Origin: Sphingobacteriales bacterium
GTDB lineage: Bacteria > Bacteroidota > Bacteroidia > Chitinophagales > CAIOSU01
Direction: 5' to 3'
NCBI GenBank assembly: GCA_027486795.1
Contig: JAIXOI010000034.1
Location: forward strand, 1-64,000
DNA length: 64,000 nt
Shown here: piece after piece, positions 1,307-63,055 of the stretch
Layout: every line of letters starts with the position of its first letter
Position numbering within the stretch: position 1 is the stretch's first letter
Notes under the pieces: model-generated
What the model was told of the DNA's origin: nothing
The model's database searches: none
What the model saw: the letters and a program-made list of their open reading frames with translations, nothing else
Program-made: the position numbers and the translations under genes

Positions 1307-1391
1307 AATTCAAAATTGAAAATTAAAAATTGAAAATTTGATGAGGCATGACGGGCAATTTTAAATTTTGAATTTTAAATTTTCAATTACT
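1307..1391. repeat. Pair of oppositely oriented AT-rich heptamer arrays
   Basis: Positions 1307-1341 read as consecutive 7-mers (AATTCAA, AATTGAA, AATTAAA, AATTGAA, AATTTGA). Positions 1357-1384 read AATTTTA, AATTTTG, AATTTTA, AATTTTC. The second set is roughly the reverse complement of the first, with 15 bp between. The second array runs into the rocD 3' end: the rocD stop codon begins at 1387. The pair could fold into an AT-rich hairpin in the rocD-trmD intergenic transcript. Confidence 0.7.
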
Positions 1392-2660: not shown

Positions 2661-2771
2661 GTGGCTTCAATTGCTTATTGGCAACTCTATGCAAAGGTAA
2701 CAATAGTGCTGCAAAGGTGGTTTCATAAACCGCGTAGCAAGTTTATGGTCGTTTTTTATTTCAAGTTAACC

Positions 2772-2799
2772 CGTAACTCGCAACTCGACACCCGCAACT
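2772..2799. repeat. Four-unit heptamer array, CGCAACT type
   Basis: Four consecutive 7-mers: CGTAACT, CGCAACT, CGACACC, CGCAACT. The array ends three bases before the stop codon of the TPR membrane protein (2803). It is GC-richer than the other arrays but keeps the same 7-bp period. Confidence 0.6.
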
Positions 2800-20841: not shown

Positions 20842-21519
20842 CTATGCCAGATTCATTTTTTTGAACACCAATAGTTCATGGTTAAACAAACGTCCTTTGC
20901 GAAGGGTATGGTTGCCTTGCAACTGCAATCCGTGGTAATTAAATAAGTGCACGTAACCGCTAAGCGTATATTGGTGTGGATGAAGAATGTCGCCCGGTAT
21001 TAAGCGAAATAGCTTTTGAAATACACTATAATTATGCGCATCCAAGGTCATTATAATTACGCCGTTTTGGCTGGTTGCTGCTATTAATTTTTCAGTGGCC
21101 AATTCAATATCGGCAACGTGGTTTAGGGCATTCATGCAAAAAACCAACTCAAAAGGCTCTCGGCATTTAAACTGCTCCAGCGGAATATTCCTAAAATCGA
21201 CCCATGGGAAAACGGACGTATCAAAATGTTCAAGCCAATAGGCATAAGTTTCAATCAGCGGGTCGATGGCCGTTACTGGGTGCGCGTTTAGCACCATGTA
21301 AACACCAGCAGGGCCGCATCCGGCATCGAGTACGGGCATGCTTTTGTTGCTTAGTAGGCTATCCAACTCAGGCAACAACTTGGTAGCTTGGTTCAACAGG
21401 CTTTGCCAGTAATCGCATTTCCATTTGTGGTACGTGGGCCAATCCTTACCATGTAAGTACCTCCGCCACCAGTATTGCTCAACATGCTGCGCAATGCGCC
21501 ATCGGATGGGGTGGTTCAT
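20842..21519 (-). CDS. Class I SAM-dependent methyltransferase
   Basis: A 225-residue methyltransferase with motif I PVLDAGCGPAGV (about 62-73) and a motif IV-like FELVFCMNALNHV with following IITMTLD-type strands. The substrate is unknown. Its start codon lies only 5 bp from the outer end of the inverted repeat bounding the GxxExxY gene, so its leader and probably its promoter are made of repeat sequence. It is followed after 36 bp by the DUF5686 gene on the same strand. Confidence 0.8.
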   Translation of the reverse strand: MNHPIRWRIAQHVEQYWWRRYLHGKDWPTYHKWKCDYWQSLLNQATKLLPELDSLLSNKSMPVLDAGCGPAGVYMVLNAHPVTAIDPLIETYAYWLEHFDTSVFPWVDFRNIPLEQFKCREPFELVFCMNALNHVADIELATEKLIAATSQNGVIIMTLDAHNYSVFQKLFRLIPGDILHPHQYTLSGYVHLFNYHGLQLQGNHTLRKGRLFNHELLVFKKMNLA

Positions 21520-21524
21520 TTGTG

Positions 21525-21562
21525 GTCTGAATCAGAATTTACAGAATTAGAGAATTTTAAAA
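21525..21562 (+). repeat. Left arm of 38-bp inverted repeat around the GxxExxY gene
   Basis: The arm starts GTCTGAATCAGAATTTACAG and matches the reverse complement of 22153-22190. The outer 24 bp are identical and 35 of 38 bp match overall. A perfect 16-bp palindrome, AGAATTTTAAAATTCT, lies at 21551-21566, on the inner edge of the arm. Confidence 0.85.
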
Positions 21563-21611
21563 TTCTGAATGGGTTAAAAATAATTCTAAAATGCTCCATT
21601 TGCTGAGTTAT

Positions 21612-22010
21612 TCAAACCTGCTTGGGGTGATATTTGGGGTTGAACATTAACTTATATTCTAAGCTGCTCCCGCCAAAATTAATCAATAGGCATTTGGGAA
21701 AGTCGTAAACTACCGTGTAATTTTTAGCTTGGGCAATATTTACGTCTTCCAATTTTACTAATGCCTTTATCTCAACTACTATTTGGTTATCAATTACAAA
21801 GTCGGCCCTTCGCTCACCAACTTCAATATCATCGGAGTATACTTTATGGCTTTGCTCCCTTGTGAAAGGCACAAATGCCTTTTGTAATTCAATGGCCAAG
21901 CATCTTTGATAAATTACCTCTTGAAAACCAGGTCCCATTTTGGAATGTACCTTCATTGCGCATCCAATAACTGCGTATGATAATGGGTCTTTGTAAGCAG
22001 GAGTTTCCAT
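21612..22010 (-). CDS. GxxExxY protein (PD-(D/E)XK nuclease superfamily)
   Basis: A 132-residue protein of the GxxExxY family, placed in the PD-(D/E)XK nuclease superfamily. The naming motif is at 28-34 (G28, E31, Y34). The nuclease core is intact: D70 in RRADF, E80 and K82 in VVEIKA, and a RecB-like Q94xxxY98 in AQAKNY. Family members are short and often found singly in Bacteroidota. Biochemical function is unestablished; DNA cleavage is inferred from residues only. The gene is the sole ORF between two 38-bp inverted repeats about 590 bp apart, which suggests a small mobile or selfish unit, or a repeat-processing nuclease. Confidence 0.85.
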   Translation of the reverse strand: METPAYKDPLSYAVIGCAMKVHSKMGPGFQEVIYQRCLAIELQKAFVPFTREQSHKVYSDDIEVGERRADFVIDNQIVVEIKALVKLEDVNIAQAKNYTVVYDFPKCLLINFGGSSLEYKLMFNPKYHPKQV

Positions 22011-22152
22011 TTAAAGGCCAATTTTGTTTTCAATTATTAAAAATAAGAAATAAAATTTTGTAGCCAGAAATTGTTAATGAATGCAAAATGCATACCACCA
22101 CTATATAAATAGGCGTTTGTTGGTTTAGTTTGGATAATTAAATGACCTTTAA

Positions 22153-22190
22153 TTCTAAAATTCTTCAATTCTGTAAATTCTGATTCAGAC
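22153..22190 (-). repeat. Right arm of 38-bp inverted repeat around the GxxExxY gene
   Basis: It is the reverse complement of 21525-21562 with three mismatches, ending CTGTAAATTCTGATTCAGAC. The arm finishes 31 bp before the start of the BatA-domain gene, so this repeat is also part of that gene's leader. Confidence 0.85.
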
Positions 22191-22206
22191 AAAGTGATTC
22201 AGACAA
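22181..22206. repeat. Tandem direct repeat at the outer edge of the right arm
   Basis: TGATTCAGACAA occurs at 22181-22192 and again at 22195-22206, 14 bp apart. The first copy is the tip of the right inverted-repeat arm, so the arm's end has been duplicated once outward. Confidence 0.75.
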
Positions 22207-22221
22207 GTTAACTTTGCCCGC

Positions 22222-24249
22222 ATGAGTTTTGTGTACCCTGCCTTTTTGTTTGCCTCGGCCTTGGTAGTCATACCTATTATTGTGCACTTATTTAATTTTA
22301 GGCGCTACAAAACGGTATACTTTACCAATGTGCGTTTTTTGAAGGAAGTAAAGGAGGAAACCACCAGCCGCAGCAAACTGAAACATTTGTTGGTGCTGGC
22401 AGCGAGAGTTCTGGCTGTGTTGTTTTTGGTGTTTGCATTTGCCCAGCCTTTTATTCCAGTTTCGAAAAACGATTTGCCGAAAGACGGAAACAGGGGCATC
22501 TCCATATTTATCGACAACTCATTTAGCATGAGTGCCGAGGCCGATGACGAGGCATTGCTGCTAAAGGCGAAGCGAAAGGCAAGAGAGATAGTGAATGTGT
22601 ATGGCGAAACAGGTCGTTTTCAGTTATTAACCAACGACTTTGAAGCCCGCCACCAGCGCTTCGTATCGCGCGAAGAGGTGTTGAACCTAATTGATGAGGT
22701 GCAGCCTACCCCTCGCAGCCGCCCATTACGTGAAGTATTGGCCATGCAGAAAAAAACGTATGCCGATGCGCGAATGGAAAATAACGTGGCATATTGGTTA
22801 TCCGATTTTCAAAAAAACATTGCCGATTTTGAGCCCGATACGGCCATTAATCTTTCGTTGGCACCGCTGCAATCGGTAAAGCAACAAAACGTGTATGTCG
22901 ATTCGGCATGGTTTGAGCGACCAGTTATCTTTACCAACCAGCCCAATAACCTATTTGTGAAAATAGTAAACAGCGGAGATGGAGAGGTGGAAAACAACCG
23001 GTTGACGCTAAATATTAACGGGCAGACAAAAGCTATTAATGATTATAGTATTGCTGCCAATAGTTTTACTATCGATACTTTGGCATTTACGGTGCCTCAA
23101 GACGGCTGGTACCGAGCTGAGCTGAGCATTCAAGATTACCCTATTACTTTTGATGATAACTACTACATGGCTTTCCGGTCTACCGGAAAAGTACCGGTTT
23201 TGGTTATTAACGAAGAACAAGAGGGGCCATTTCTGAAAGCTATATATGCCGATAGTGAGCGATTTGGACTGACCAATCAAGCTATAAACAAGTTAGATTA
23301 TACGGCACTAAACCGAAATGGCTTGATAGTGCTGAACAACCTAAGTACTATTCCATCAGGTTTGGCTGCAGAGTTGGTAAAGTACCTTCAAAATGGAGGT
23401 GCATTAGTGGTGTTTCCTAGTGCAAAGGCCGATATTAACTCATTTAATAACTTTTTTGGGGCAGTTGGGGTAAATAAAATTGCAGGATTAAGTACTACTG
23501 AAATGCCTGTTACCGCCCTAGAAACCAACCATGAATTGTTCAAAGACGTGTTTGAATCGGTGCCGCGCAACCTATCATTGCCCAATACCAAATTGCACTA
23601 TACTTTTTCTCCTACCACCCGCAGCAATGAGCAAGAGCTTTTAACGTTTAGGGACGGAAGTTCGTTTATGAGTGGTTATAACTTTGATGGGGGCAAAATT
23701 TATGTTGCAGCAAGCCCGTTGGATAGGGACATAACCGATTTCCCGGTGCACGCCATATTTGTGCCGATGCTATATAAAATGGCATTAAGTGGCGGCCAAT
23801 TGCAAGCTCCGGCCTATACCTTGGGCAATGACAATGTAGTTGAAGTGATTGCTGAAGTGGTAAACCCAGATGAATCACTAAAATTAAAAGGGAACAATGC
23901 CGAGTTTATACCACAACAGCGCATCAACGGTAACCGAATATTGCTTACCGTTAACGACCAAAGCTTGCGCGATGCTGGTATATTTGAAGTGCAGGATAAG
24001 GAAGGTAAGGTGCTTGCTGTTACGGCCTTTAACTATAATAGAAGTGAATCGGTAGCGGAGTATTACACCCTTGACGAGCTAAAGAACCGTTACCCCGAAA
24101 ATACGGTTGTTGTACTAGATGCCAGCAGCTCCAATTTTGCAGGTTTGGTGCAGGAGTTTGACCGTGGGATTGTGCTATGGAAACTTTGTATTATTTTTGT
24201 GTTAGTATTTGCCGGAATAGAGGCGCTGCTTTTGCGCTTTATGAAATAA
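22222..24249 (+). CDS. BatA-domain membrane protein with VWA-like domain
   Basis: A 675-residue membrane protein. The N-terminus (MSFVYPAFLFASALVVIPIIVHLFNFRR) is the BatA/aerotolerance-regulator signature, with a second membrane helix at about 55-78. A VWA-like domain follows with an intact metal-binding DNSFS (D98, S100, S102). The large periplasmic middle part has a glutamine-amidotransferase-like fold feel (LIVLNNLSTIPSGLAAELVKYLQNGGALVVFPS). A final helix lies near the C-terminus. It heads an operon with a dihydroorotase homologue, DUF4199 and glycosyltransferases. No MoxR gene is adjacent, although one lies 5 kb downstream on the opposite strand. Function unknown. Confidence 0.8.
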   Translation: MSFVYPAFLFASALVVIPIIVHLFNFRRYKTVYFTNVRFLKEVKEETTSRSKLKHLLVLAARVLAVLFLVFAFAQPFIPVSKNDLPKDGNRGISIFIDNSFSMSAEADDEALLLKAKRKAREIVNVYGETGRFQLLTNDFEARHQRFVSREEVLNLIDEVQPTPRSRPLREVLAMQKKTYADARMENNVAYWLSDFQKNIADFEPDTAINLSLAPLQSVKQQNVYVDSAWFERPVIFTNQPNNLFVKIVNSGDGEVENNRLTLNINGQTKAINDYSIAANSFTIDTLAFTVPQDGWYRAELSIQDYPITFDDNYYMAFRSTGKVPVLVINEEQEGPFLKAIYADSERFGLTNQAINKLDYTALNRNGLIVLNNLSTIPSGLAAELVKYLQNGGALVVFPSAKADINSFNNFFGAVGVNKIAGLSTTEMPVTALETNHELFKDVFESVPRNLSLPNTKLHYTFSPTTRSNEQELLTFRDGSSFMSGYNFDGGKIYVAASPLDRDITDFPVHAIFVPMLYKMALSGGQLQAPAYTLGNDNVVEVIAEVVNPDESLKLKGNNAEFIPQQRINGNRILLTVNDQSLRDAGIFEVQDKEGKVLAVTAFNYNRSESVAEYYTLDELKNRYPENTVVVLDASSSNFAGLVQEFDRGIVLWKLCIIFVLVFAGIEALLLRFMK

Positions 24250-28921: not shown

Positions 28922-29503
28922 ATGAGTAATCAACATAAAATAGAGGAGCGATTGAACGAGGCTTTTACACTTCGTGAAGCTGTAATGCGCAATGCAGAAC
29001 TATTGCAACAAGTGGAGAAAGCCGCAGGGCTGATGTACATGGCCTTGAGCAACGGACATTCGGTGTTGTTTTGTGGCAATGGCGGCAGCGCTGCCGATGC
29101 GCAACATTTGGCTGCGGAACTGAGTGGAAGATATTACCTTGACCGTAAACCTTTGGATGCTGAGGCATTGCACGTTAATACCTCTTATCTTACTGCCACG
29201 GCCAACGATTTTGGTTTCGACCACGTGTATAGCCGCTTAGTAGAGGCCAAAGGAAAGAAAGGGGATGTGTTGGTTGCACTATCTACTTCTGGCAACTCGG
29301 CCAATGTGGTGAATGCCGCAAAACAAGCCCGCAAGCAGGGCCTTATAACCATTGGCTTTACAGGCAAAAATGCTAGTCAAATTGACGACCATTGTGATGT
29401 GCTTATCAAAATACCAAGTACCGATACCCCGCGCATACAGGAGCTGCACATCCTCCTTGGACACATCATCTGCGAAATAGTGGAGCAAGAGCTGTTTGGT
29501 TAA
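28922..29503 (+). CDS. gmhA: D-sedoheptulose-7-phosphate isomerase
   Basis: GmhA converts sedoheptulose 7-phosphate to D-glycero-D-manno-heptose 7-phosphate, the first step of ADP-heptose synthesis for LPS or surface glycans. The 193-residue SIS-domain protein has FCGNGGSAADAQHLAAELSGRY (50-71), LSTSGNSANVV (phosphate site, about 120-130) and a C-terminal QELHILLGHIICEIVE segment with zinc-ligand residues. It follows three glycosyltransferase genes, fitting a role in envelope sugars. The other heptose genes are not seen. The leader is a heptamer array with no clear Shine-Dalgarno sequence. Confidence 0.93.
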   Translation: MSNQHKIEERLNEAFTLREAVMRNAELLQQVEKAAGLMYMALSNGHSVLFCGNGGSAADAQHLAAELSGRYYLDRKPLDAEALHVNTSYLTATANDFGFDHVYSRLVEAKGKKGDVLVALSTSGNSANVVNAAKQARKQGLITIGFTGKNASQIDDHCDVLIKIPSTDTPRIQELHILLGHIICEIVEQELFG

Positions 29504-29592
29504 TTTGAAAATTTGGAAATGAGCTAGTTTGAAAATGATTTTTGCATTGTGTTTTTCATTTTCAAATTTCCAAATTGTCACATTCTCAAATT
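29501..29592. repeat. Opposed AATTTGA-type heptamer arrays forming a hairpin between convergent genes
   Basis: 29501-29538 carries TAATTTG, AAAATTT, GGAAATG and so on. 29551-29592 carries the same word types in reverse complement. TTTGAAAATGA (29528-29538) pairs perfectly with 29556-29566 around a 17-nt loop. The pair fills the whole gap between gmhA and moxR and overlaps the stop codons of both, so it may act as a two-way terminator. Confidence 0.7.
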
Positions 29593-62939: not shown

Positions 62940-63055
62940 CAATTTGAAAATGAGTCAATTTGAAAATTTGAAAATGATAAGAGGGCAAATTTATAATGAA
63001 TTATCAAGGATAACCCATTTTCAAATTAGCACATTCTCAAATTGGCAAATTAATT
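62940..63055. repeat. Opposed AATTTGA-type heptamer arrays around the tyrS upstream region
   Basis: 62940-62981 reads CAATTTG, AAAATGA, GTCAATT, TGAAAAT, TTGAAAA. 63016-63055 holds the same words in reverse complement. ATTTGAAAATG (62966-62976) pairs perfectly with 63016-63026. The stretch between them contains the candidate tyrS promoter. The right array runs to the stop codon of the next gene. Confidence 0.7.
62986..62993 (-). promoter_or_regulatory. Candidate -7 box for tyrS
   Basis: On the minus strand TAAATTTG matches TAnnTTTG exactly, 54 bp before the tyrS start. It lies in the loop between two opposed heptamer arrays. A -33 box at the usual distance is not clear. Confidence 0.35.

Follow-up and report, generated by a model that had tools for sequence, protein, structure and literature searches.

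A predicted nuclease gene of the GxxExxY family lies between inverted arms that recur at gene edges in Bacteroidota

The window analyzed here, a stretch of 64,000 nucleotides from a Sphingobacteriales bacterium (contig JAIXOI010000034.1, positions 1 to 64,000), holds a compact unit in which a single gene for a GxxExxY protein is bounded by two inverted arms and flanked by a methyltransferase-like gene and a gene with a BatA N-terminal domain (Table 1). An earlier, sequence-only reading had described inverted repeats of 38 bp with identical outer 24 bp, a size of about 670 bp, and ends that stop 5 bp and 31 bp short of the flanking start codons. This description holds with one small adjustment: the arms are 40 nt long, slightly more than had been proposed, they are 93% complementary and identical over the outer 24 nt, the unit measures 666 bp from tip to tip, the left-arm tip GTCTGAA points outward to the methyltransferase start codon 5 bp away, and the right-arm tip points outward to the BatA-family gene, the start codon of which is 31 bp away. 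Given that the 24-mer has two matches in the window and none in 100 shuffles, chance is excluded as the source of this repeat. A partial second tip that follows the right arm, TGATTCAGACAA, is the remnant of another right arm; at the same place in the congener G003, the extra right arms are longer.

Table 1. Features of the window discussed in the text
Feature	Position	Strand	Basis or remark
Methyltransferase-like flanking gene	20842..21519	-	start abuts left tip
Left arm of GxxExxY unit	21525..21564	+	inverted repeat; limits from comparison of 64 arms in two congeneric genomes
GxxExxY protein, PD-(D/E)XK fold, 132 aa	21612..22010	-	PF13366 and TIGR04256 profiles
Right arm of GxxExxY unit	22151..22190	-	inverted repeat; limits from the 64-arm comparison
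Partial second tip TGATTCAGACAA, 12 bp	22195..22206	-	direct repeat D3, after right arm
Flanking gene with BatA N-terminal domain	22222..24249	+	start near right tip
Gene-less unit, IVP-associated AATTTTGAA-type arms	1307..1388	.	family defined at L022
Single arm resembling GTTACGAG family (arm of G002 at the orthologous site)	2768..2792	-	weak, 3 mismatches
Gene-less unit, IVP-associated AATTTGGAAAT-type arms	29502..29576	.	family defined at L024
Second gene-less unit of AATTTGGAAAT family	62940..63044	.	IVP-associated family

The protein is a member of the GxxExxY (PDDEXK_3) family, with matches to PF13366 (108 bits, E=4.7e-31; curated cut-off 22) and TIGR04256 (113.5 bits, E=6.6e-33; curated cut-off 35), and its gene is the only PF13366 gene in the source genome (G000). 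The intact nuclease core recognized by the sequence-only reading is confirmed by the invariance of D70, E80, K82, Q94 and Y98 across 26 homologues. An AlphaFold model of the protein is confident (pLDDT 91.8) and has a PD-(D/E)XK fold; among PDB structures it most clearly matches the Cas4-type exonuclease SSO0001 (4ic1; Z 9.5; rmsd 3.0 over 99 residues), the next matches having Z of at most 7.7. By this modeled fold and the D...ExK active site the protein falls within the PD-(D/E)XK superfamily and is a predicted nuclease. While it resembles Cas4-type nucleases in fold and active-site arrangement, it comprises only 132 residues and is encoded alone between arms with no adjacent CRISPR genes. 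A sequence search for solved structures returned none, the PADLOC defense models gave a weak match to Cas4b only (E=4.8e-4), no relatives were found in phages, and a plasmid search gave six weak matches, all on plasmids scored as non-mobilizable. PF13366 is present in 151 of 296 sampled Bacteroidota genomes, and GxxExxY hosts include Bacteroidota, Fibrobacterota, Ignavibacteria, cyanobacteria and one gammaproteobacterium. Type I restriction-modification operons are a frequent setting (L290, L293, L294, L295, L300), with hsd genes flanking 22 of 80 GxxExxY loci from GTDB.

The arms of the window unit belong to a dispersed family. Pattern searches of the source genome with the 24-nt tip, allowing up to 3 mismatches, gave 20 matches, and the reversed-pattern control gave none. 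Among congeners the tip occurs 55 times in G003, nine times in G005, seven times in G004 and four times in G002, and it has no copies in two other genera of the same bacterial family. The cognate GxxExxY gene is present in G003 and G005; in G002, which is 78% complete, the sole GxxExxY gene found carries arms of another type. A survey of 296 genomes from this phylum yielded 252 copies of the pattern GTCTGAANNNNRATTNNNNNRATT outside G000 versus 8 for the control. In the same survey at least four arms were found in 18 of 150 genomes with PF13366 and in 4 of 145 without (p=0.003), an association that is only partial because the other arm type accounts for many of the PF13366 genes.

Each arm is a string of 41-42 nt composed of an outward tip (TT-GTCTGAA) and four short cores that are spaced by 8-9 nt and separated by near-random spacers. 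In a logo of 236 non-redundant type-I arms, GTCTGAA is followed by cores ending at positions 15, 24, 32 and 41; cores 1 and 2 were demanded by the search pattern, whereas cores 3 and 4 were free and are nevertheless prominent. Mismatch between left and right arms is about 0.22-0.3 at cores 3 and 4 versus 0.4-0.77 at the spacers, and compared with shuffled sequences GxxExxY arms have raised identity at lags of 9 (z=20.5) and 8 (z=10.6). The limits of the arm are sharp in G003 and G000, with information close to zero two bases beyond the tip and just past the fourth core. Outer flanks differ among copies, which have the arm alone in common. In six gene-less units of G003 with near-identical arms, the interiors are no more alike than shuffled sequence, and at the spacers the left and right arms of one unit resemble each other no more than random arms of the same genome do (0.553 versus 0.569; p=0.73). 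The unrelated interiors and the independent spacers thus identify the single arm as the shared, dispersed piece. Within 200 bp, arms are arranged with their tips outward in 65 pairs versus 9 in the reversed order, a count of pairs gathered by pattern rather than a census. The sizes of the units cluster at 89-101 bp, and the short ones fold into hairpins (z -6 to -8.7) whose internal loops are small and regular. At one locus (L046:2483-2947) a whole short arm pair is present in four tandem copies with start-to-start distances of about 110-127 bp.

In a wider survey 123 GxxExxY loci were collected, of which 119 were usable, and flanks of 350 bp were searched for inverted matches with a threshold score of at least 16. 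At this threshold 66 of the 119 loci (55%) are bracketed by inverted arms, compared with 6.5% for mismatched flanks and 1.5% for other ORFs from the same loci; the check for cognate repeats at other GxxExxY genes, which the sequence-only reading had called for, therefore came out in its favor. Two arm types occur among these loci, GTCTGAA..GATT..GATT and CACAGAG-like, and arm type follows the clade of the GxxExxY protein: on the protein tree it changes 2 times versus 16.9 times with shuffled labels, although the labels had been corrected by eye beforehand, a possible source of bias. A GFQExxYQ motif is present in 48 of 49 type-I proteins. A Spirosoma GxxExxY gene (L117:3770-4574) has arms of 122 nt, apparently several arms joined head to tail, and in G003 (C17:7041-7391; L035) arms of the CACTAAG type still surround a GxxExxY gene broken by a stop codon.

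Arm tips lie at gene edges. Where a tip adjoins a 5' end, 24 of 36 are within 60 bp and many within 20; where it adjoins a 3' end, 12 of 17 are within 60 bp and all twelve within 10, bearing in mind that for these distances ORF starts were assigned mechanically and some loci are mutually orthologous. As arms are often directly before start codons, their exchange may affect expression. Among 50 short units, 35 lie between genes, 12 extend over the end of a gene and 3 are in frame within type I restriction-modification genes. In-frame gene-less units occur in hsdM and in the hsdS linker, and the hsdM unit is a clean in-frame insertion of about 36 codons relative to a homologue. In some operons units separate genes; an integron attC reading of this arrangement appears unlikely on the sequence of the tip, which departs from the attC core.

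Comparison of congeners reveals what is present at orthologous sites. In G005 the window site has the same unit (97%). In G003, upstream of the same BatA gene, a gene-less unit of about 200 bp lies on either side of the GxxExxY gene, and partial right arms are also present. In G002 the two genes are still divergent, the unit is missing, and a different repeat arm lies by the methyltransferase start; hence a site without the unit, which the sequence-only reading had proposed to look for, exists in a congener. G004 is uninformative here because its contig (C170; L206) switches abruptly inside the BatA gene to unrelated GC-rich coding sequence and looks like a chimeric assembly. Elsewhere conserved slots hold different arm families in different congeners, sometimes with a single arm replaced: (i) at the C55 slot the left arm is of the GTCCATGG type in G003, G004 and G005 and of type I in G000, (ii) the C7 slot has GTCCATGG arms at both ends in G002, and in G000 the left arm is kept and the right one is of type I, and (iii) at the C48 slot the arm is of the genome's own type in G000, and in G002 it is the type-II arm that also surrounds the GxxExxY gene of G002. 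Between arms shared by G000 and G004/G005, cores differ at 1.8% of positions versus 5.2% for spacers and flanks (p=0.002, with a mild bias possible given that orthologues were found by their tips), so that cores are constrained even in the absence of a gene. Spacers in orthologous arms diverge at a roughly neutral rate.

This constraint is what would be expected if the arms served the host. In this main rival explanation, selection maintains the arms beside genes as binding sites or as RNA hairpins, for instance as a 5' leader, terminator, insulator or nucleoid site, the gene is a passenger or an accessory factor, and the system as such does not move. The difference between cores and spacers, the tips that abut start and stop codons, many of them within 20 bp, and the folding of the units as hairpins all argue for such a function. 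We nevertheless consider it unlikely, because in close congeners the same slots have different families or none, copy number ranges from 0 to 55 within one bacterial family, arm type goes with the clade to which the small protein belongs, and units are also found in frame inside restriction-modification genes.

Alternatively, the units could be ordinary MITEs or REPINs, in which the GxxExxY protein or another transposase copies entire hairpins that then decay. The outward orientation of paired arms, the clustering of unit sizes, the clean insertion in hsdM and the tandem whole-unit copies in L046 would all be in line with copying of this kind. Rickettsia palindromic elements are likewise palindromic units of about 100 bp that are mostly intergenic and sometimes in frame inside genes. 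Here, in contrast to MITEs and to the Rickettsia elements, interiors are not shared among the six G003 units, no consistent target duplication was found in 65 units, most sites being old, and a cognate gene-bearing copy is present. Moreover, the two arms within a unit differ at their spacers as much as arms taken at random, and correctly inverted arms of two families are combined in mixed units, which make up about half of the G000 units outside the window (read by eye); in G003 at least 6 of 43 arms are paired in this way. A classical MITE copied as a whole is therefore disfavored, and we regard this explanation as improbable. The interpretation given by the sequence-only reading is partly supported: a repeat family with its own nuclease fits these data, whereas a non-autonomous unit copied whole does not, given the unrelated interiors, the independent arm spacers, the lack of a consistent target duplication and the single exchange of arms at conserved slots.

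Among known systems, REPIN/RAYT comes closest in anatomy (Bertels and Rainey 2011, PMC3116915). In both, inverted repeats flank a single gene of nuclease type, many intergenic repeat pairs without a gene can form hairpins, and in both the class of the repeat goes with the class of the protein. The two differ in the enzyme, a Y1/HUH tyrosine transposase there and a PD-(D/E)XK protein of the PF13366 family here, and in the repeats, which here consist of iterated cores with random spacers, behave independently, enclose unrelated interiors and are frequently paired across families, instead of replicating as a doublet with singlets as remnants. Because these two defining features, the type of enzyme and the doublet as the unit, are not shared, we do not file the window system under REPIN/RAYT. 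The genome also has six Y1 (PF01797) transposase genes at other places (L027, L030, L031 and L032 among these loci), some of them flanked by their own compact palindromes in the manner of true REP/RAYT systems; mobilization of the arms by these Y1 transposases was rejected because their palindromes differ.

We tentatively suggest, with a confidence that stops a little short of an even call, that the window unit is a REPIN-like, nuclease-encoding master copy of the dispersed arm family and that single arms rather than whole units are exchanged. The observations behind this suggestion are the dispersed tip copies beside a single gene, the bracketing of GxxExxY loci, the core periodicity, the agreement of arm type with protein clade, the excess of arms in genomes with PF13366, the sharp arm ends with independent interiors and spacers, the swaps at congener slots, single arms included, and the Cas4-type fold and active site of the protein. 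In this arm-exchange model, an intergenic slot is bounded by two opposed arms with outward tips, which could extrude as a hairpin; the interior is the GxxExxY gene in one slot and unrelated intergenic DNA in the others. We infer that the nuclease acts on the arms: the Cas4-like PD-(D/E)XK protein would recognize the iterated cores of its own family and cut at or near the tip or at the extruded hairpin, and repair after the cut would place the resident arm in a further slot, whereby arms would spread and be overwritten singly. As in a REPIN/RAYT pair, one nuclease gene would serve many repeats in trans, but with a different enzyme and with exchange of the arm instead of the whole hairpin. Several observations count against this model: (i) 45% of GxxExxY loci are without detectable arms at score 16, (ii) G004 has seven arms, and no GxxExxY gene was found in it, (iii) four surveyed genomes with no PF13366 match have at least four type-I arms, (iv) core conservation at gene-less sites also suits a host function, (v) movement was not seen directly and the 65 units showed no consistent target duplication, and (vi) spacers differ between copies, whereas simple templated repair should copy them. 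The spacers are the weak point; old insertions, with later drift of the spacers and selection on the cores, would account for both the differing spacers and the conserved cores, given that spacers of orthologous arms drift at about the neutral rate.

The GxxExxY unit has parallels in the same genome. Each of its five IVP (PF05635) genes lies in arms of its own family, and four-helix-bundle IVP genes, which were found in 157 of 198 sampled genomes, appear to run parallel arm systems. At a score of at least 14, inverted arms bracket 20 of 35 IVP loci versus 5% for mismatched flanks, and these arms are built from iterated cores with a 7-8-nt period and a core sequence of their own at every locus (L022-L026, L310-L339). 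The IVP/S23 ORF is otherwise a part of intervening sequences of 23S rRNA, such as the 428-nt element of Coxiella with terminal inverted repeats and an IVP ORF (PMC4990558). Like these sequences, the window unit has a length of a few hundred bp, terminal inverted repeats and one small ORF, and the IVP genes of this genome sit in arms of the same architecture; the possible link between the two consists in the shared IVP protein and the inverted-repeat architecture. These likenesses, together with the Coxiella element, would also suit an RNA-level intervening sequence, in which transcribed stems related to those of 23S rRNA are cut by RNase III and the protein takes part in RNA processing. However, the window unit lies outside rRNA between two divergent protein genes and has no match in Rfam, its protein has a fold closest to DNA nucleases, and gene-less copies are dispersed at gene edges, so that an RNA-level origin seems highly improbable to us.

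Possibly, though doubtfully, the GxxExxY and IVP units exemplify a general and undescribed class in which arms built as strings of 5-7-nt cores colonize gene edges and overwrite each other slot by slot, with a protein of its own for each family and with two unrelated proteins, GxxExxY and IVP, in the same role; if true, this class could also be where the intervening sequences of 23S rRNA with an IVP gene come from. That related arms surround this small nuclease-like gene in many bacteria is a sign of a repeat system, selfish or DNA-organizing, about which little is known. In Bacteroidota, genes for GxxExxY and IVP proteins are small, very common and without an explanation; cognate arms give them a testable function. 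GxxExxY is a compact, nuclease-like protein whose repeat pattern is readable and specific to its family, and the arm systems suggest what shapes intergenic regions in these genomes. A literature search did not find the repeat sequences and found PF13366 and PF05635 barely mentioned, an absence that is no proof of non-description; a GxxExxY gene is merely listed in a paper on a Chrysochromulina virus, and a survey of reverse transcriptases mentions one beside a reverse transcriptase gene. A further repeat, for which no associated gene was identified, lies in the left flank of L010: its iterated ATTGGTTG 8-mers have very many matches in all four congeners searched.
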